From Verrucomicrobiia bacterium (GTDB taxonomy: Bacteria > Verrucomicrobiota > Verrucomicrobiia > Verrucomicrobiales > Akkermansiaceae), in the NCBI GenBank assembly GCA_030432565.1, contig JAUIGV010000033.1, positions 1 to 57,025 of the forward strand: a stretch of 57,025 nt of DNA, in the 5' to 3' direction. Of the stretch, positions 12,974-22,517 are shown in pieces. The notes below the pieces were generated by a model that saw only the letters and a program-made list of their open reading frames with translations, had not been told where the DNA came from and ran no database searches. Each line of letters opens with the position of its first letter. The first letter of the stretch is position 1. The position numbers and the translations under genes were made by a program.

Positions 12974-14947
12974 CTATTCCTCCGCGACACGGACCCGATA
13001 GAAGAATTTTTGGCTGCTTGCAGCTGCTCCGGGGTCAGTGAAGAATTGAATCTCGGTATTCGCCTCCAGAGAATCTTCGATCTCCAGCCATCCGCCAGGC
13101 TCTCCGGTGGGAAGCAATGATGTACTGCGCTCAATAACATAGTTCTCCCCGACCTTGGCCTGGAAGCTGAAGGTCACGTCGTTGGATTGTGAGTCCACCG
13201 AAATCTCCGTGATCACAAGAGAAGTATCTCCTCCTGATTCGATGTCCAGTTTTGCGTAGTCCAGACTGGCCCAGCGTGCACTGCCAGTGGCCTGGCTTTT
13301 AACTTCGACATAGTGGTCGAACCCAGGTCCGAGCTCGTCCACGCCGCCCAAATCATCAAGAGTAAATTCCCAGCTTTGTGCGGCAGCCAGATTGTCATCG
13401 GTGTGAGGTTGCATTTCTCCGACTTGTTGTCCATCGACGAAGAAAGTCAGGTCGAATCCAGAGACTTCTGCAGCGTTATCATCGTCGAGGCTATAGAAAT
13501 CAATGGTGAATTTGAAGTTGTCGTTGCGGCCAACAGTATTAGGCACATTGAAGTGCCATCGCATATTGGGGTCACCGATGGTCAATGCCCTATCGTAGTA
13601 GCGCTCATTGGCGGCCACAGTACCGACGGGCGTGTAAGTGCCGCCATCGACAACCGTGTTGTAGACACCCGCAAAATAGAAATCGTCATCGATATCACGT
13701 TCACCACCACTTGGTCCGCCAGTATTCGCCGGGTTGCCAGGGAGATCCTGGAGACCGTTTTCCTGGACCCCCGAGACGAAAAAATCAGTTCCATTAAAGA
13801 AGGCAGGATCGTTGAAAGTATTGTCTCCTTCTCCGTCCTGTCCTTCATCGTCGGTGCCAACGAACCATAAAGTCCCCTCATCGCTGAAAGGCACGAAGAT
13901 CCGGGCCGCAAGAAAAATATCCTGGGTTCCATCGGTGGTGTCGTTGGAAGTCACTGTCAAGGTAGCGGCGAGGCTTTCCTCAATCGCACCCGGAGTAAGG
14001 GTCACTTCGATTTGGGCATCCTCTCCGGGGGCCACGGTAATCGGTAGGGCTGGTGCATTGCTAATAGAGAAGGAGTCGGGATTGACACCTCCCAGCGTAA
14101 GCTCGGTGATAACTAGATTCTGTGTTAGTCCGGAATTCGTAAGGACGATGGTTTCGGTGGATGCTTCGCCTCCCACTGGAATATCACCAAAGTTGACTGC
14201 TGGCGCGACAGCGATGTTCGGGTCATCCTCAACGATGGGATCGGACGAGACTTCCAGCTGCGCATAGTCAAGGCTGGCCCAGCGGGCGCTGCCGGTCGGA
14301 GTGCTTCTCACTTCAACGTAGTGGTCAAATCCTTCACCCACCTGCTCGACGCCTCCCAGGTCATCCAAGTCAAAATTCCAGCTTTGTGCTGATGCGAGAT
14401 CAATATCCAAATGGGGCTGCATTTCCCCGATCTGTTTTCCATCTACCCAGAACGTGAGATCGTAGCTTGAGACATCTGCAGCGTTTGCTTCGCTCAGGTT
14501 GTAAAAGTCGATCGTAAAGGTAAAGGTGTCTCCTTCCGCCACAGTATCGGGAAGATTAAAATGCCAGCGCATATTTGGATCGCCCCCGGTAAAAGCGCGA
14601 TCATAGTAGGATTCATTTTCCGAAACGATACCGACCGGAGTGTAAACACCTCCGTCGACAACCGTGTTGTAGACTCCCGCGAAGTAATAATCATCATCGA
14701 TGTCCCGCGCAGCATCCGAGTCTATTCCGCCGGTATTCGCCGGATTGCCGGGGAGATCCTGGAGACCGGTTTCACGAGCGCCTGATACGTTAAAAGCGAT
14801 CCCGTTGAAGGAGGCGGGGTCATTCAATCCGTTCGCAGGATCACCATTTCCGTCCTGGGTGTCATCATCAATTCCGATGTTCCAAAGGACGGCCGCCTTG
14901 GCCGGAATCACCAAAAGTCCTGCCAGTATAATGTGTCTTAGTTTCAT
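12974..14947 (-). CDS. Secreted protein with two W-N-I-G domains flanking a choice-of-anchor-D (HYDIN-like) domain
   Basis: A 657-residue protein. The signal peptide (MKLRHIILAGLLVIPAKA, then A-V-L-W-N-I-G) fixes the ATG at 14947 over the one at 14998. Domain order: first W-N-I-G domain (~20-225); an immunoglobulin-like ASPM-SPD-2-Hydin/choice-of-anchor-D domain (~235-345, with F-G-D-I-P-V-G-G and L-T-V-T-S-N-D-T); second domain (~355-560, starting L-W-F-V-G-T-D-D); then a C-terminal beta module ending K-F-F-Y-R-V-R-V. There is no PEP-CTERM tail, unlike the downstream short paralogue. DNA identity between copies is high around LQDLPGNPANTGG, suggesting recent duplication or conversion. Binding or structural surface role inferred; ligand unknown. 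Divergent from the FG-GAP gene at 15059. Confidence 0.85.
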   Translation of the reverse strand: MKLRHIILAGLLVIPAKAAVLWNIGIDDDTQDGNGDPANGLNDPASFNGIAFNVSGARETGLQDLPGNPANTGGIDSDAARDIDDDYYFAGVYNTVVDGGVYTPVGIVSENESYYDRAFTGGDPNMRWHFNLPDTVAEGDTFTFTIDFYNLSEANAADVSSYDLTFWVDGKQIGEMQPHLDIDLASAQSWNFDLDDLGGVEQVGEGFDHYVEVRSTPTGSARWASLDYAQLEVSSDPIVEDDPNIAVAPAVNFGDIPVGGEASTETIVLTNSGLTQNLVITELTLGGVNPDSFSISNAPALPITVAPGEDAQIEVTLTPGAIEESLAATLTVTSNDTTDGTQDIFLAARIFVPFSDEGTLWFVGTDDEGQDGEGDNTFNDPAFFNGTDFFVSGVQENGLQDLPGNPANTGGPSGGERDIDDDFYFAGVYNTVVDGGTYTPVGTVAANERYYDRALTIGDPNMRWHFNVPNTVGRNDNFKFTIDFYSLDDDNAAEVSGFDLTFFVDGQQVGEMQPHTDDNLAAAQSWEFTLDDLGGVDELGPGFDHYVEVKSQATGSARWASLDYAKLDIESGGDTSLVITEISVDSQSNDVTFSFQAKVGENYVIERSTSLLPTGEPGGWLEIEDSLEANTEIQFFTDPGAAASSQKFFYRVRVAEE

Positions 14948-15058
14948 GATCCCCGTCGAATACCCAAAAAGTCTCCGAGATTCAACGAGAATCTCCATGG
15001 CTTGCGTTTTTTAAATTGAGCGTTGTAGCTTAAATCCAAAGTTGCTTCCCTTATTACA

Positions 15059-16804
15059 ATGAAGCGGGTTATCTCCATTGTTGTCCCAACGATCATCGTG
15101 ATCGGAATATCCTTTTTCATTTCAAGAAAAGGTGACCGTAAGGATAGTTCGGATGATCAGATCTCCGCGCGTATTCCAGCGCTTGTGGCGAGTGAAGAGC
15201 TCATCCTGGAACTCACGAAGGAACTTAAAGCCATTACCCTGGATTTGCAGAATTTCAGCGAACCAACTCCAGATTCAGTTTCCCTGAAAAAGCTCGCCTC
15301 AGTGTGGAGCAACGATGTCGATTTTTTTGACAGCACCTCTCTGAAGATTGTGAAAGGAGAATTTTTGTCTGATGGCCGGGACGAGTATGTTGCTGAAGTC
15401 AAATTTCACGCAGTGGTCCGGACTCTGAGCAAAAAGTGGAAAGAGCATTCGTCATACTATCGGGTCCGCTGGTCCAGAAAAGATGGACAATATCGAATGG
15501 GCGACTGGACCTTGATCCGGGAGACGGACAAGCCGGAAATATCCCGGAAATATTTTCGAGATCGTATGGTCGAAGCCTTGCCTGATCTCCCGACACGTCG
15601 ACGGCTCACTCAATCCGAACATCGACGGGCGTTGAGCTACCATTACAGTACCAATAAAAAATTGGCACCCTCTCCAGACTTTGAACCCATTGCGATGGGA
15701 TTTAAGCCCGCGATCTCGGTGGTCGACGTTGATAACGACGGATGGGACGATGTTTATGTCATGGTGCGTCTGGGAAAAAATTTATTCCTGCACAATCAAG
15801 GTGACGGGACTTTTGTGGAAAAGGCTTCTGCGCTTGGGCTTTCATTGCCAGGCAATTCAACCTGCGGAATATTTGCAGATTTTGACAATGACGGGGATCC
15901 TGATCTCATGCTCGGAAGAAGTATTGAACGAATGACCTATCTCGAGAATGCCGGAGGGAAGTTTCGGGCAGTCGAACAAAAGAAGGCGGAGCTTCCGTTT
16001 TTAGCGACTTCTCTCGCTGCGGCAGATTATGACGGAGACGGTCTGCTTGATCTTTATGTCACGACCTATCGCCGGGGGGACTTGAACGCGAGTATTCCCG
16101 GGTTTGTGGGAGAGGAGGGAACGGATTGGTCCGCCAAATATCTGCCAGCTGAGGAGGCCAGGATGTTCCGCAAAAAGTATCAAGAATCTCGTCAGGAATC
16201 ACACAGGGGATACTTGAACCAAACAGGACCTCCCAATTGGCTCCTTAAAAATATGGGGAACGGGCAGTTCGAAAGAGTTCATTCCAAATCTCCTATCAGT
16301 AGCTGGAAAAATTCTCTTCAGGCGACCTGGGGAGATTTTGATGAGGATGGAGATCCCGATCTTGCGGTGGCAAACGACTGGGCTTTGGACCACCTTTTTC
16401 GTAATGATGGAACGGAGGGATTCGTCGATATCGCCTCTGAAAAAGGCTTGGATCTGATGGGTTTTGGGATGGGTGCGTGTTGGGGGGATTATGATGGAGA
16501 CGGTCAAGATGATCTTTTTATTACCAATATGTTCAGCAAAGCAGGGCAACGGGTTTTAGGCGATTTCGCAGAGATAGATCCCCGCTTTGTCGAGGCGGCA
16601 TCCGGTAATTTTCTCTACCGTCAGAATGAAGGAAAGTTCGAACAGCTTGCCGGATATGGAGGATCAATGATCCCCGTTGCCAGATCCGGTTGGTCCTGGG
16701 GGGGGCAATTTGTCGATATCGACAACGACCGGGATCTCGATATTCACGTCTTGAGTGGCTATTTTACCGCTCCCCGTTCTTTCGAATCGGATATTGATTT
16801 GTGA
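15059..16804 (+). CDS. FG-GAP/UnbV/thioredoxin protein, part 1 (up to an in-frame TGA)
   Basis: Codons 1-581 of what looks like a 962-codon gene ending at 17947. A signal anchor (hydrophobic residues ~4-21) precedes an NTF2-like region (~45-175). Then come at least six FG-GAP/VCBS calcium-loop motifs, each D-x-D-x-D-G-x-x-D: VVDVDNDGWDDVYV, FADFDNDGDPDLML, AADYDGDGLLDLYV, WGDFDEDGDPDLAV, WGDYDGDGQDDLFI and FVDIDNDRDLDIHV. These form an integrin-like beta-propeller, as in CRTAC1-family proteins. The reading frame then meets TGA at 16802-16804 and continues open, in the same frame, through the rest of the family's usual domains. So this is either a selenoprotein or readthrough gene, or a gene with a nonsense mutation. 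Expected location: periplasm or cell surface. Confidence 0.85.
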   Translation: MKRVISIVVPTIIVIGISFFISRKGDRKDSSDDQISARIPALVASEELILELTKELKAITLDLQNFSEPTPDSVSLKKLASVWSNDVDFFDSTSLKIVKGEFLSDGRDEYVAEVKFHAVVRTLSKKWKEHSSYYRVRWSRKDGQYRMGDWTLIRETDKPEISRKYFRDRMVEALPDLPTRRRLTQSEHRRALSYHYSTNKKLAPSPDFEPIAMGFKPAISVVDVDNDGWDDVYVMVRLGKNLFLHNQGDGTFVEKASALGLSLPGNSTCGIFADFDNDGDPDLMLGRSIERMTYLENAGGKFRAVEQKKAELPFLATSLAAADYDGDGLLDLYVTTYRRGDLNASIPGFVGEEGTDWSAKYLPAEEARMFRKKYQESRQESHRGYLNQTGPPNWLLKNMGNGQFERVHSKSPISSWKNSLQATWGDFDEDGDPDLAVANDWALDHLFRNDGTEGFVDIASEKGLDLMGFGMGACWGDYDGDGQDDLFITNMFSKAGQRVLGDFAEIDPRFVEAASGNFLYRQNEGKFEQLAGYGGSMIPVARSGWSWGGQFVDIDNDRDLDIHVLSGYFTAPRSFESDIDL

Positions 16805-16834
16805 AGTAATCTCTGGCGCACGGTCGTGCGGCAG
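16802..16834 (+). promoter_or_regulatory. In-frame TGA with SECIS-like hairpin
   Basis: The TGA at 16802-16804 is followed by CTG/CAG pairs (16813-15 with 16832-34), one G-G mismatch, then a perfect 5-bp stem CGCAC (16817-21) / GTGCG (16826-30) with loop GGTC (16822-25). In E. coli fdhF the SECIS apical loop is also GGUC at positions 22-25 counted from the U of UGA; here it is at 21-24. A bulge or mismatch lies below the upper stem in both. This is a manual comparison only; SelB specificity varies between phyla. Confidence 0.5.
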
Positions 16835-17947
16835 GATGAAAATATCGGAGGTAAACTCCGCAAGTCCGAAGCTTGGGATCGCGACCCTCAAACAGGGATG
16901 GTCGACAACCTGCTGGATGCTCGTGTCGAAACAGGTGATGAGGTCGTTGACGGTAAACTTCGGGTCCACTCCCTGAGTGGTCACGAACGAAACAAGCTTT
17001 ACCTAAATGAGGGGACCGGTTCGAACTTTTCAGACCAGTCCGGCCTTTCCGGCTTGGACGATGAGTCTGATGGACGGGCATTTGCCGTCTTCGATTATGA
17101 CCGGGACGGGTGGAGTGACATCGTTTCGGTGAATGCGATGAATCCACTGACCCGGCTGTTTCACAATGAAATGAATGACGGGAGTCAGCGCGGTAATTTC
17201 ATCGCCCTTTCTTTCAAGGGAGGGAATCGCACTGCCACCGCATCAGATTGGAGTAATCGTGATGGTTACGGCGCCCGTGTTGAAGTAAGGAAAGGAGAGG
17301 AAGTTATTGAGAGAGAACACCGCTGCGGCCAGGGTTACGGCTCCCAAAATAGCGCTGTAATGATCGTAGGATTGGGCGATTGGGAAGAGGTTGATGAGGT
17401 AATCGTAAGGTGGCCGTCCGGAAGAAAATCATCGGTTGCGAAAGTCAAACACGGAGAGTGGTTGACCGTCGACGAAGCGAGTAGCGAGGAACGGAAACCC
17501 TACCGTCAGGACGTGAAATCAAAACAGATGTCTCTGCCGGGGCTGGCGACCTTCCCTCTCGGCTATCAATCAAAAGCTCGTTTGACGGTTTGGAAGGGAA
17601 TGGCCACGTGGTGCCCCGCTTGCGCTCGTTACCGTCCTCATTTCGAGCATCTCAAAGCAATGACTCAAGGGCTCGGCGTGGAATTCCGTGGCTTTCCTCT
17701 CGACGAAAAAGAAAGCCGCGAAACACTCATCGGCTATCGGAACGAGCACAACCTCCCTTATCATTTAGAGACGGATCTCTCGATGTTGGATCGTAAGAAA
17801 ACAGAAGTGTTTCTTCAGCGTTGGATCGGAGCCGCCGAGCTGCCGTATCCCATATCTGTCGTAACGAACCAGCGAGGAGAGATTCTTTGGGTAGGAGCCG
17901 GGGCTCCGACAGTGTCAACGCTCCGCCGTTTTCTTGCCGACCAGTGA
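16805..17947 (+). CDS. FG-GAP/UnbV/thioredoxin protein, part 2 (same frame after TGA)
   Basis: Continues codon for codon from 16804. It begins SNLWRTVV, then has a linker, another FG-GAP-like motif (VFDYDRDGWSDIVSV), an ASPIC/UnbV domain (G-Y-G-A-R-V-E-V, then the I-V-R-W-P-S-G-R signature) and a C-terminal thioredoxin-like domain with the active site W-C-P-A-C (Cys 852 and 855 of the joined protein). UnbV plus FG-GAP is the standard CRTAC1-type pairing, so this part belongs with the upstream part. The only early alternative start, GTG at 16826, lies inside the hairpin stem, lacks a ribosome binding site and would leave a protein without a signal peptide although its domains are extracytoplasmic. 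The thioredoxin part suggests a thiol redox role. Confidence 0.8.
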   Translation, partial: SNLWRTVVRQDENIGGKLRKSEAWDRDPQTGMVDNLLDARVETGDEVVDGKLRVHSLSGHERNKLYLNEGTGSNFSDQSGLSGLDDESDGRAFAVFDYDRDGWSDIVSVNAMNPLTRLFHNEMNDGSQRGNFIALSFKGGNRTATASDWSNRDGYGARVEVRKGEEVIEREHRCGQGYGSQNSAVMIVGLGDWEEVDEVIVRWPSGRKSSVAKVKHGEWLTVDEASSEERKPYRQDVKSKQMSLPGLATFPLGYQSKARLTVWKGMATWCPACARYRPHFEHLKAMTQGLGVEFRGFPLDEKESRETLIGYRNEHNLPYHLETDLSMLDRKKTEVFLQRWIGAAELPYPISVVTNQRGEILWVGAGAPTVSTLRRFLADQ

Positions 17948-18098: not shown

Positions 18099-21000
18099 CT
18101 AACGCAACACCGCTTTTACCCGGAAAAAGCGTTTGCTGTCAGCCACCGCTGGCGTGACCAGGCGAACGGTGCGGATTACGGTTCCGTCGCCGTTCGGAGT
18201 GCTGGCCATTTCAACAATATCAGCCGGATCATCGCTCCAGTTCTGTAGATCGCTGGTTGTCTCGACAGATATCCTCACGTCATCGGCGGTTTCCCTCACG
18301 GTGTAGGTGAAGGTATCGTACAGGACGCCATCAACAACCATGAGCCTGGCACTGGCAGCACCCGTTTGGTCGGGATCGTTATCGCTGCTTCCAAGGGCAT
18401 GCTCAAGGAGGGCGTTGACCCCATCGCCATCAAGATCATCCCATGGGTTACCCGAAAGCAGACTGCCATCCGAACTTCCAGGTGTTCCGCCGGGAGCGAC
18501 ACTCGCTCTCCAATTGCCGGGCTTGGAGGGATCCGGATTGGTGGCGGGCGCGATAAGAACGATGCTGTAGCCCAGAGTGTCGGCCACCTCGGGCCAAGGT
18601 AATTTGTCGTTGTAGGTGAATTCCTTAATGGTGCCGTTTGAGGCGTCTTCGAGTTTCAGTCCTTCGCCTCCATTGCTCAAGCCGGTGGAGTTGGCAAAGA
18701 CTCCCGCAACTGGAAGTCCAGCACCATAGGCGCTTTCAAAAGCGATAAGATCCCGCACAACGAGCACACGACCGCCCGGAGCCAGGCTGGTGACAGAGCT
18801 ACCGGTGAAATCAAAGTCGATGCCATTGGTGAACCTCACTCCGTCCAGGTCAAGAGTTTCGGAACCACTCACGTTCATTAGTTCGACATACTCGGCCAGC
18901 CCGTCCGGCTCGGGATGGTACATAATTTCGGAAATAACGAGATGCCTTTGTTGGTCACTGGGATCGCCCACGTAGGAAGTGAAACTATTCTCCATACCAT
19001 GTTGATCCAGAAGCGTAAGCGATTCCCCCAGGTTGGAGAGGTGCCCTTTGAAGGGGCTGACCACAAAATGACCTTCCCCTCCGGTAGGACTGACCGTGCG
19101 GGAGCGGAACGCCTTGGCATCCGGGCTCAGATGGAGGGTCCAGCCAGCGGGAATAACGGTCCCGGCGGGAATCTCGAAATCGACTCCGCCCGTCACTTTC
19201 CAGTTGGAGATATCGACCGCGATACTGTTGTTGTTCACCAGTTCGATATACTCTTCATCCTGGTTCCCTGATATAGGATTGAATTCGATTGCTCCAAACT
19301 CGATCAAAGGCTCAACGCTGCCATTGGAATCAACAATCCCGCCATGCAACTCCGGCATAAAAATCAGGTCACGGCTTCCCAAGGACCGGTTCATGCCGTG
19401 AATGGCAAGGACGTTCGTCCCGGCCTGAAGTTCGCCCAATGACGAGCTGACATTCCAAGTATCGTAAACGAGAGGATCAGCTTCGGAGGAAGCGGTAGCG
19501 ATCGAGTTCCAGGCGGGGCTGGCCGGGGCCTTTTCCTCCGCGATCTTGGTGCCGTTGAGATAAACGATGAATCCATCGTCATACTTCATACGCAACTCCA
19601 TGGCCTGGTAGATGGAAGGGTCGGCTACATCGAATTCACAACGCATATAGACGGAGGAATGGGTACTTCCCATTGCACCTTCAATATCAGACCCGATCAG
19701 AGGTAGATACTTGGAGCTCGAATCGAATCCCACGCCCGTGGTTCCGGTGGTCCAGTTGGAGTCATTGAAATCAACATTCATCCAGATGTTGTCAACGGAG
19801 TCATCTTCAGGGACGAAGTGATTGACCGAAGCCCCGGCCCACAGAAGAGGTTCGTATATGATATTGAGCTGGCCAGTCTGTGGCTCGGGGATGGAATTCT
19901 GGGAATAAATAAAGGCTCTCCTTGGTGCCAAAAATTCGTCGCGCAAGCGCTGGACAGCTTCGGACATATCTTCGACATCGGGACTGCTGTTGGTGTAGGG
20001 GACGACCGTGGCGCCTCCCCCGTCAGCGTTATGCAGCCAGGAACCCCATTTTTCAAAGTCGAGCTGTGCGTCGGAGGGCACGATATCATCGGGATCGATC
20101 AGGGCGGAAAGCTCCTTCAGTCGACGTTCGTAATAGCGTTCTTCCATCGGCGTATCGGCCGGCTGAAGATAGAGGTCATGCAATGTTCGAACGCGGCGGT
20201 AGAACATGGCCCTCGTCGAGGGGCGACTGTAAAGCTGGGAAACAAGGCGACCGGCACTGCCAGTCTCGATAAAGCCGTTGGACTCCAAAAGGTTACTGAA
20301 GTAGTTGAACTGGGATCTCCAGTAGCGCCCTTGGGAGAGATCGAGATCCCAGGGAAGGAGAGCCCATTCGTCACTCTTGCCGGTATCGCGGTAAATATAC
20401 CAGTTCTTCCGGTGCATGTCAGTGTTCCGGATGACGGCAGCGGCGGCCATCATATTGACACACATGGGAATGTTGACGTTATCAAAGGTGAAGTCGTCCA
20501 ATTCAGTGCCACTTTTGGCAAGTCCATCGATCAAATCCTGGAGGTCGTCATTATTTTCGCTGCGCCGATTCTTCTTCTCGAATCCCATGTTGGCACTTCC
20601 CGTAAGAGTGTTGTTGTAGACCTTGTAGAGCGCACCCTCTTCATTGAGGCCCGCGCGTTTCAAATAAATATCGTCGGCGTCTTCGATGAAGTCAGCAGTG
20701 CTGAAAAATTCGGCGTTCTGTTGGACCCGGACCGTATAAGCGAAGTGGGCGTGCACGCCGGCATTGCGCATGATTTCGTAGCCCAGGACGTGGCGGACTT
20801 TTGACTTATCGGCCCAGTTGGTAATCAAGTCGATGTCCTTCGTCCGGGGAGCGTCTTCGCTCCATCTAAATCGCTGGCTCTTGTTGAAATCGATATTGTA
20901 GCTCTTCTTCGGAAATCCTCCCGTGGATTGACCGTGCCGGTTGAAGAAAACATTGTCGTAAAGTTCACCCAGGTAAAAAATCGCGCCACGGGTGCCGCCC

Positions 21001-22517
21001 GTTCCCGTGGCTGCCGCGGGGTTCTGGACGAACCATTCCACCACGCTGAGCTTGGTATTGATGGAGGGATCGACCGCAACGGTCCCGACATATTGGTGAG
21101 AATCGAGCGGATCCTTGAATGCAGGTGTTTTTGATTCCAATCCCAATTGGTCGCTTGCCTCAAACCTCCAGCGGATCATCTCTCCCGCGTCAAAGACATT
21201 ACCGGGAATCGCGGCGGTAAAGACGCCGTCATTCGCCAGAGTATCGGAGCCGATGCCATCGTCGTTCATGACAAGCATGTTTTCCGAACCGAACATGATT
21301 CGATAGAACATGGAGACCGATGTAACAGGCGATGCAACGGCCTCCATCTTTGCGGTAATGATGAGGTCTTGCCCGGCAATTGGTCTTTCGGGCTTATCCG
21401 TAAAATTGACAAAAAGTGGGCCAGCAGCCTGGCCGCTGGAATTGGGGAGGCCCGGTGTTGGCGAGTCAAAGAAGCCTTCACGTTGAGAGCCGGAAGTATC
21501 AACAACATCGGCGGTGAGCTCAGGGTAAATGAGGAAATCCGAACTGTTCGCCGAACGGTTGAGTCCGTGTATCGCGAGGATATTCACTCCCTCCACCACT
21601 TGCGTTGCGCCCGCCGTGGCATCGACCACGATTGGTGTGCTTGCCGTGATCGAGTCAGATCGCGATCCAGTGGCGTTGGAATTCCAGGTTAAGTCGCCAG
21701 GCTGGTTGTAACTCCCGGATCTCACTCCATTGATATAAGCCACAAAGCCATCATCACAATTCACGCTGAGGGAGAGCGATTGAATCTGTTCGTTCTCCGG
21801 GTTGTAAGTGAACGGGATGCGGATGTAACAACTGGCGTTAACAGACTGCATCTGTGGCTTGAGGGTCGCGTTTCCCAGGGCAGTATCGCCCACCAAGTCC
21901 AAAAGAACTCCCGAATCAAATCCAATTCCAGTAGTAGTTTGAGTCCAGGTAGCGTCATCAAAAAAAGACGGAAGTGCCTGCCAGGTATTGCCCAGTGAGT
22001 CATCCGCCGGCACAAGATACTTCGCCGGTTGGCTGCCGCTGATCAACTGTTTCCGGGTCACCGATCCGAAGGAATCTCTTCCATAAGATTGGTCCTCAAA
22101 CTGCAGAGGATAAGTGGAGCCAAATTCCGTAAGAACGGTCACAGCATCCGGTGCAACAAGAGCGAGATATCCGCCTTCCGCCGGTAGTTTGAAACTGGTG
22201 TGCAACTCGGCTTCAGGATCCGAGCGATCTTTGTCAGAAGCGAAAATGACAAGATAACCACCAGCCGGGATGGCGACTGCGGGAATCCGCCACTTATCAA
22301 GATTGGTCGCCCTGTCGGTGAGGAAGTAACCATCAAGGTCAACCTCGCTACCGTCGGGGTTATGAATTTCGATCCAGTCCGAAAAGTCGCCATCTTCATC
22401 GGCCAAGGTTGTATCGTTGGCGGCCATGAATTCGGAGATCACCGGTGCGGCATTGACAAAAAAGGAGCTAACCGCAAAGGCCAAGGCAAAGGAGAATGGA
22501 AATTTTTTAAGCTTCAT
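18099..22517 (-). CDS. Giant secreted lamin-tail/CotH-kinase-like protein
   Basis: 1472 residues. Signal peptide ~1-23 (FVNA before A-P-V-I-S-E-F). Order: lamin-tail domain (~25-140, S-D-W-I-E-I-H-N); galactose-binding-like module (~165-340, starting Y-L-V-P-A-D-D-S-L-G); Ig-like region (~360-480); CotH-like region (~495-860), with PKKSYNIDF, DIDLITNWADKS and the acidic A-L-L-P-W-D-L-D-L motif; a second Gal-binding-like module (~930-1090); two further lamin-tail domains (~1100-1340); C-terminal beta module ending R-F-F-R-V-K. CotH proteins of Bacillus spores are atypical secreted protein kinases whose D-x-D-type acidic residues bind the nucleotide; kinase activity here is inference. Two related but LamG-led proteins lie at 46-54.7 kb. 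It stands alone, convergent with the thioredoxin gene. Confidence 0.85.
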   Translation of the reverse strand: MKLKKFPFSFALAFAVSSFFVNAAPVISEFMAANDTTLADEDGDFSDWIEIHNPDGSEVDLDGYFLTDRATNLDKWRIPAVAIPAGGYLVIFASDKDRSDPEAELHTSFKLPAEGGYLALVAPDAVTVLTEFGSTYPLQFEDQSYGRDSFGSVTRKQLISGSQPAKYLVPADDSLGNTWQALPSFFDDATWTQTTTGIGFDSGVLLDLVGDTALGNATLKPQMQSVNASCYIRIPFTYNPENEQIQSLSLSVNCDDGFVAYINGVRSGSYNQPGDLTWNSNATGSRSDSITASTPIVVDATAGATQVVEGVNILAIHGLNRSANSSDFLIYPELTADVVDTSGSQREGFFDSPTPGLPNSSGQAAGPLFVNFTDKPERPIAGQDLIITAKMEAVASPVTSVSMFYRIMFGSENMLVMNDDGIGSDTLANDGVFTAAIPGNVFDAGEMIRWRFEASDQLGLESKTPAFKDPLDSHQYVGTVAVDPSINTKLSVVEWFVQNPAAATGTGGTRGAIFYLGELYDNVFFNRHGQSTGGFPKKSYNIDFNKSQRFRWSEDAPRTKDIDLITNWADKSKVRHVLGYEIMRNAGVHAHFAYTVRVQQNAEFFSTADFIEDADDIYLKRAGLNEEGALYKVYNNTLTGSANMGFEKKNRRSENNDDLQDLIDGLAKSGTELDDFTFDNVNIPMCVNMMAAAAVIRNTDMHRKNWYIYRDTGKSDEWALLPWDLDLSQGRYWRSQFNYFSNLLESNGFIETGSAGRLVSQLYSRPSTRAMFYRRVRTLHDLYLQPADTPMEERYYERRLKELSALIDPDDIVPSDAQLDFEKWGSWLHNADGGGATVVPYTNSSPDVEDMSEAVQRLRDEFLAPRRAFIYSQNSIPEPQTGQLNIIYEPLLWAGASVNHFVPEDDSVDNIWMNVDFNDSNWTTGTTGVGFDSSSKYLPLIGSDIEGAMGSTHSSVYMRCEFDVADPSIYQAMELRMKYDDGFIVYLNGTKIAEEKAPASPAWNSIATASSEADPLVYDTWNVSSSLGELQAGTNVLAIHGMNRSLGSRDLIFMPELHGGIVDSNGSVEPLIEFGAIEFNPISGNQDEEYIELVNNNSIAVDISNWKVTGGVDFEIPAGTVIPAGWTLHLSPDAKAFRSRTVSPTGGEGHFVVSPFKGHLSNLGESLTLLDQHGMENSFTSYVGDPSDQQRHLVISEIMYHPEPDGLAEYVELMNVSGSETLDLDGVRFTNGIDFDFTGSSVTSLAPGGRVLVVRDLIAFESAYGAGLPVAGVFANSTGLSNGGEGLKLEDASNGTIKEFTYNDKLPWPEVADTLGYSIVLIAPATNPDPSKPGNWRASVAPGGTPGSSDGSLLSGNPWDDLDGDGVNALLEHALGSSDNDPDQTGAASARLMVVDGVLYDTFTYTVRETADDVRISVETTSDLQNWSDDPADIVEMASTPNGDGTVIRTVRLVTPAVADSKRFFRVKAVLR

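Follow-up and report, generated by a model that had tools for sequence, protein, structure and literature searches.

Does the TGA at positions 16802..16804 of the plus strand end a protein, or is it translated? In the window, by which we mean the whole analysed stretch of 57,025 nucleotides, an ATG at 15059 is followed by 581 codons, this in-frame TGA, 380 sense codons and a terminal TGA at 17945..17947. Translation table 11 splits the gene into two ORFs, 15059-16804 and 16826-17947, the second of which has 373 codons and begins at a GTG (16826). A sequence-only reading of this DNA had proposed that the first TGA specifies selenocysteine (Sec) at codon 582, and the frame, with its 380 further open codons, is as it was claimed. 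The putative Sec stands in the motif D-L-U-S-N-L-W-R-T-V-V of a predicted 962-residue protein encoded at 15059..17947. We give a probability of about 0.93 to the explanation that this is a selenoprotein whose Sec would be inserted at UGA 582 via SelB and a GGUC hairpin; that the codon is decoded as Sec, taken by itself, seems to us very likely from the comparisons described below.

The coding frame was compared with that of 11 orthologues, ten of which had measurable dS (L055 was saturated). In these ten pairs dN/dS was about 0.09-0.15 upstream of the TGA and 0.10-0.19 downstream of it, so purifying selection, as estimated from these alignments, is similar on both sides. The downstream values indicate that the part after the TGA is translated in the same frame, and the in-frame UGA thus lies within one conserved coding frame. 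The terminal TGA of the same gene remains a stop, which implies that the reading of UGA is site-specific. The window has five TGAs preceded by at least 200 and followed by at least 150 open codons, and the pattern of motif plus hairpin fits only the TGA at 16802 (one match; none in 100 shuffles).

How widely is this site distributed? With the read-through protein as query, the same genome yielded eight paralogues with TGA, all in the same alignment column; the match of one of them, L019, holds an extra TAA, its own stop, 217 codons past the TGA at the match edge. Thirteen of the 14 orthologous loci L048-L061, whose records come from Verrucomicrobiales, Akkermansiaceae and similar, cover the site (L048-L060), and all 13 have TGA there. 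Of 27 genomes from the genus, 23 gave matches at E <= 1e-60, 164 in total with a maximum of 18 in one genome (G405), and among the matches listed (150 of 164) each of the 150 rows has exactly one TGA. Three TGA genes were detected in G349, a genome from another verrucomicrobial family, and a search through its class brought up no other genome (1/118). Each multi-genome search scored only a handful of candidates from any one genome (4 in the verrucomicrobial search with G349, 16 in its class, 18 in a related Cys-bearing family, 9 in Acidobacteriota), and absence there is weak evidence. No match at 1e-30 was found in a plasmid collection, and viral contigs gave one distant relative, L313. The earlier proposal of a selenoprotein, made from this single gene, is supported, and the gene belongs to a large multigene family.

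The set of loci, made of 114 listed genus rows plus other loci, comprised 181, of which 179 have a residue in the Sec column (L061 and L079 have none); the TGA stands there in 170 of these 179. When identical contexts were collapsed and the same gene from two collections was merged, 158 distinct contexts remained, 149 with TGA and nine with other codons. The D-L before the site, the W at +4 and the V at +7 are invariant in all 149 TGA contexts. None of them has a UxxC or CxxU motif (there is no Cys at +3 or -3), and 15 have Cys at +1 or +2.

The TGA is followed by a SECIS-like hairpin at 16809..16837 of the plus strand, lower stem included. Its apical stem of five base pairs is formed by CGCAC (16817..16821) and GTGCG (16826..16830) around the loop GGTC (16822..16825), a putative contact of SelB; below it come a 1x1 internal loop and then six more pairs, which make up the lower stem. 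The GGTC loop occupies nucleotides 21-24, with the T of TGA as nucleotide 1, as the sequence-only reading had described it. That reading had also held GTG 16826 unfit as a normal start because it lies inside the stem, and the GTG indeed makes the first bases of the 3' arm. Taken alone, the fold is modest: z is -1.95, and 7 of 200 shuffles were equally good. Synonymous-codon shuffles equalled it in 14/200 cases and equalled the version of one orthologue in 77/200. An Rfam scan of the window gave nothing at gathering thresholds. The significance of the hairpin comes from comparison across the family, as far as sequences can tell.

In this comparison GGTC was found at nucleotides 21-24 in 140 of the 149 distinct TGA contexts (nine are without it). 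In 128 of them, one or the other of two registers forms a stem of at least five pairs, which 21 lack. The two registers enclose a GGTC tetraloop (i+j = 45) or a pentaloop, mostly GGTCG (i+j = 46). One group of paralogues (L072, L091, L110 and L111) keeps the stem but carries AGTTT in the loop where others have GGTCG, which may be a variant site for SelB. Among 125 distinct 42-mers, seven fit neither register and four of the second register have a stem of one pair. For the covariation test these 125 sequences were split by codon 6 alone, independently of pairing, into groups of 31 and 94. The fraction of paired cells was 0.994 in the 31 sequences (shuffle mean 0.920, highest 0.955) and 0.910 in the 94 (shuffle mean 0.835, highest 0.853), values reached by 0/1000 shuffles in either group; slid registers gave at most 0.68. 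Changes on both sides that keep the pair numbered 8 at 16-29, 21 at 18-28, 10 at 20-26, 4 at 16-30 and 1 at 19-27, counts which kinship among the sequences inflates. In replacements such as CGA..TCG by CGG..CCG or GGG..CCC the amino acids are altered and the stem is kept.

The folding energy of the 125 sequences had a mean of -10.4 kcal/mol vs -6.5 for synonymous-codon shuffles, with a mean z of -1.57 and 55/125 below -1.5; control windows of the same genes had a mean z of -0.10, with 59/509 below -1.5. Only 36 of the 125 reached the stability of the top 5% of their own synonymous-codon shuffles, and the folding effect therefore belongs to the whole set and not to every gene. Among close orthologues synonymous changes at codons +4 to +10, which include Trp with no synonymous codon, came to 0.065 per codon, vs 0.31 upstream and also 0.31 at +11 to +60. 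A SECIS-like hairpin after the UGA thus appears to be conserved as RNA.

Homologues without TGA are a natural control for both the residue and the hairpin. We sampled 200 genomes of the Acidobacteriota family to which L062 (Candidatus Sulfopaludibacter) belongs; 86 of them match, and seven rows have TGA. Seventy loci together with L062 gave 69 distinct contexts, with Met in 24, Asn in 15, Glu in 13, TGA in 6, Ala in 4, Ser in 4, Gly in 2, Asp in 1 and Cys in none. All 6 TGA contexts have GGTC together with a five-pair stem, vs 3 of 52 non-TGA contexts in which W-R is conserved at +4/+5 (11 without W-R were excluded). Whether or not the stem is present, GGTC occurs in 10 of these 52; the stem, whether or not GGTC is present, occurs in 9. 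The peptide, then, does not impose the hairpin, which accompanies the TGA. Folding energy was also tried as a discriminator and failed, the means being -9.2 kcal/mol for TGA and -8.7 for non-TGA contexts with no separation; judged by these sequences, the difference is one of loop and register. Several Met-type Acidobacteriota genes (L240, which is the same gene as L062, and others) have CTGATGAG at the site, and this sequence contains TGA out of frame.

The residues of homologues at codon 582 had been named beforehand as a check, and unrelated residues there as an argument against Sec. Close homologues have TGA and five distant ones have Cys, as the idea would have it; the non-TGA Acidobacteriota genes never have Cys, and their Met, Asn, Glu, Ala, Ser, Gly and Asp are in part the unrelated residues that had been named. 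However, 49 of the 52 non-TGA contexts with W-R are without GGTC plus stem, which fits a loss of Sec and does not refute that the TGA genes are decoded. Among 11 rows from another, related verrucomicrobial family, Cys occupies the Sec column in five; these Cys-bearing FG-GAP relatives (L075, L082/L236, L230, L231 and L232) share the motif DYC[ST]xxW.

To trace the history of the site we built a tree with FastTree from 247 domain rows, leaving out the Sec column, and placed the root on 17 rows of a different verrucomicrobial family. A single clade of 230 rows (support 0.98) takes in every one of the 167 TGA rows. Nested within this clade, the 69 Acidobacteriota rows group together (0.974), and among them the six TGA rows make a group of their own (0.995). 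The Cys rows sit in the outgroup beside rows with other residues. This topology agrees with an ancient site of Sec (or Cys), for which Met, Asn and Glu would have been substituted in Acidobacteriota; Sec may instead have been regained there.

The window's genome (5.93 Mb in 82 contigs, 97.3% complete) carries genes for Sec insertion. A search for selA, selB, selD and tRNA-Sec had been proposed as a check, and selA, selB and tRNA-Sec were found: tRNA-Sec exceeds the Rfam cut-off and is called tRNA-SeC with anticodon TCA by ARAGORN, selB exceeds its cut-off, and selA matches at E 1.7e-146. A SelD motif had no match in three 20-kb stretches, which says little at such scope. Across the genomes compared, mostly multi-contig drafts, selA was detected in 23/23 genus genomes carrying TGA genes; of the four genus genomes without them, G392 and G406 have selA, and G408 and G411 do not. 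G349 has selA along with its three TGA genes. The gene is absent from all 6 verrucomicrobial genomes taken for comparison in which the matches listed contain no stop, and also from G289, the one tested of four genomes with Cys at the site. In Acidobacteriota selA at E <= 1e-60 does not discriminate, being present in 6/7 TGA genomes vs 67/73 others; 80 of the 86 matching genomes were covered, and 71 of these 80 exceed the curated cut-off. Here G649, which has a TGA gene, is without selA at this threshold, and the genome of L062, with Met at the site, has it.

If not as Sec, how else could the TGA be understood? It could be a true stop, followed by a separate gene from GTG 16826 or ATG 16898 whose product cooperates with the first one. 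The 373-codon ORF allows this; however, its GTG opens the 3' arm of the hairpin, the TGA stands invariably between D-L and xxxW..V in 149 contexts, the 150 genus rows cross exactly one TGA among the matches listed, and homologues without TGA, again among the matches listed, cross the site stop-free. We regard two genes as very improbable. Equally improbable is that UGA is read as some other amino acid, by a near-cognate tRNA or after reassignment. The Met, Asn, Glu, Ser, Gly, Asp and Ala of the non-Sec homologues would agree with it, since they indicate that the fold tolerates many residues at this place, but the gene itself terminates at TGA, the Sec machinery is present, and the hairpin tracks the TGA (6/6 vs 3/52). 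A sequencing error or a decaying pseudogene might be suspected in a draft assembly; the identical TGA in 149 distinct contexts and dN/dS near 0.1-0.2 on both sides rule this candidate out for practical purposes. Machinery, the TGA column in the family and constraint at the level of RNA all support the reading of the gene as that of a selenoprotein.

The protein itself begins with a hydrophobic helix (residues 5-21, 15071..15121), noted by eye and modelled by AlphaFold2 as a low-confidence helix. It is a probable export signal or membrane anchor, and the full-length product, judging from its sequence, is probably exported or membrane-anchored. The next part is a CRTAC1-like FG-GAP beta-propeller with approximate limits 15713..17218 (Pfam FG-GAP_3, E 1.8e-41; FG-GAP, E 2e-19), followed by a UnbV_ASPIC domain at residues 736-800 (17264..17458; E 7.1e-16, 58.3 bits vs a cut-off of 23.4) and by a thioredoxin/AhpC-TSA-like domain (17603..17887) with the motif W-C-P-A-C, whose CPAC (17612..17623) is a putative thiol-disulfide site; all lie on the plus strand. 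The order FG-GAP, UnbV, thioredoxin had been claimed from the sequence. Its first two members exceed their Pfam cut-offs, a combination that places the protein among CRTAC1-like ones, and WCPAC is present, but the AhpC-TSA match of the window copy (E 0.0027, 18.1 bits vs a cut-off of 26) stays below threshold. In both paralogues tested, L020 and L023, the thioredoxin-like domain exceeds the Pfam cut-off and TPRs are present. By eye, a CxxC follows the ASPIC domain in seven of the eight paralogues of the same genome, L019 being without the CxxC domain.

At the level of fold, murine CRTAC1 (9etn_A) was the top PDB match (E 1.8e-24, first of 961), with a TM of 0.68 by target length for a model of mean pLDDT 59.7 (AlphaFold2, 16 rows); it was also the sole match in a sequence search of the PDB at E <= 0.01 (E 1.7e-22). 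Residues 568-642, Sec582 among them, have pLDDT below 50, so the position of Sec relative to the CxxC domain is unreadable from this model. No conserved Cys partner was found in the propeller, where the highest column reaches 26% of 167 TGA rows.

What could the Sec do? The sequences show the frame, the conserved site, the RNA constraint and the presence of selA, selB and tRNA-Sec; Sec insertion itself, export and the chemistry are our deductions. SelB with Sec-tRNA(Sec) would bind the GGUC apical loop just downstream of UGA 582, and Sec would be inserted there in place of termination. The resulting protein of 962 residues would combine a CRTAC1-like FG-GAP propeller bearing Sec, a UnbV_ASPIC domain and a thioredoxin-like CxxC domain. 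Outside the cytoplasm its selenol might attack an oxidised or electrophilic substrate and be re-reduced in cis by the CxxC domain, or by a partner in members without this domain. We offer such recycling of the selenol as our guess, at less than even odds. Judged by the alignment, the Met, Asn, Glu and other residues of the nearest non-Sec homologues are unusual for a catalytic Sec and speak against a simple thiol-redox role, and with such residues there the role may instead be metal-binding or structural.

A real Sec could thus serve as a metal ligand or have a structural or regulatory function with no recycled selenol, and truncated and full-length forms may both matter as selenium varies. 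We think this quite possible, though at somewhat less than even odds. The propeller offers no conserved resolving Cys, there is no UxxC or CxxU motif, Acidobacteriota have Met, Asn or Glu and not Cys, and L019 does without the CxxC domain; against it stand the Cys at the site in five related genes and the downstream CxxC of seven of the eight paralogues. A broader proposal, which we consider less likely than not, is a new class of selenoenzyme: a CRTAC1-type propeller with catalytic or metal-binding Sec, performing an extracytoplasmic reaction that would be unprecedented for selenoproteins, with Met, Asn or Glu in place of Sec where it was lost.

Convergent pairs of TGA paralogues, with domain matches about 450-490 bases apart, were seen in seven genomes (G388, G389, G395, G398, G399, G403 and G405), for example at G398:C86:1594-4464, G388:C121:3349-6211 and G405:C268:10678-13534. 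At G398:C4:66564-76058 three TGA paralogues (L178, L090 and L121), one of them the orthologue of the window gene, lie on the same strand within 10 kb. In the window the neighbours are an ASH/HYDIN-like Ig-domain protein (12977-14998) and a CotH kinase / Lamin Tail Domain protein (18102-22517), both on the minus strand and with no evident selenium link. Promoter-like sites are at chance level (2 vs 1.9 in shuffles) and terminator-like sites slightly over it (7 vs 4.5).

Has such a family been described? The claim that no selenoprotein was known in it stood up in the sources consulted. Table 1 of a 2026 review (PMC13188914) counts 119 prokaryotic selenoprotein families, including some credited to Haft and Tolstoy 2025, and the table has no FG-GAP, UnbV, ASPIC or CRTAC1 family. 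In NCBIfam the window protein P0001 matched no family at E <= 0.001, and no selenoprotein model matched; among 11 domain rows only NF047539 (XAC2610-related protein) matched, in three rows (best E 6.4e-05). In open-licence PMC full text nothing was found that links FG-GAP to selenoproteins and selenocysteine or CRTAC1 to selenocysteine in bacteria, and among the matches listed none links UnbV to selenium. Selenoproteins as a kind are known; what would be new is this family, together with its size and the counterparts that have residues other than Cys, as far as the available parts of PMC13188914, PMC12013277 and PMC4807772 (on planctomycete selenoproteins), together with NCBIfam, show. The partly available deep-Sep paper (PMC12013277) states a filter requiring known Sec or Cys homologues among top hits, and predictors with such a demand could discard this family. 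That its nearest non-Sec homologues mostly have Met, Asn or Glu may be a reason why searches for Cys/Sec pairs missed it. Automatic annotation probably carries its genes as truncated proteins.

The family would be a large, apparently undescribed addition to the bacterial selenoproteome, within the domain family of animal CRTAC1. Its 150 or more copies in a single genus make it a natural system in which to study SECIS evolution, offering two registers and a hairpin mostly gone where the TGA is gone, and it suits the question of what Sec does outside thioredoxin-fold sites.

How does it compare with known systems? The E. coli fdhF SECIS has a GGUC loop at nucleotides 22-25, and the UGA of fdhF is decoded by SelA, SelB and tRNA-Sec. 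Like bacterial selenoproteins such as FdhF, the present gene has an in-frame UGA, a GGUC-type loop about 20 nucleotides downstream and Sec machinery in the genome; it differs in the loop position (21-24), in having two stem registers and in belonging to an unrelated protein family. The Acidobacteriota non-Sec homologues (the L062 family) share a near-identical site peptide, DL-x-SFFWRQVV, but at the Sec position they carry Met, Asn, Glu, Ala, Ser, Gly or Asp, and most are without the GGTC hairpin. With the TlpA and peroxiredoxin-like selenoproteins, entered as UGC TlpA and Prx-like in Table 1 of PMC13188914, it has in common the CxxC thioredoxin-like domain (seven of eight copies in its own genome), whereas its Sec lies in the propeller part, with no UxxC or CxxU in 149 contexts. 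In propeller and ASPIC-like end it resembles CRTAC1 and other proteins with FG-GAP plus UnbV_ASPIC (murine CRTAC1, PDB 9etn); its Sec motif, however, lies outside the stretches that align with CRTAC1, a thioredoxin-like domain has been added, and TPRs are found in the two paralogues tested.
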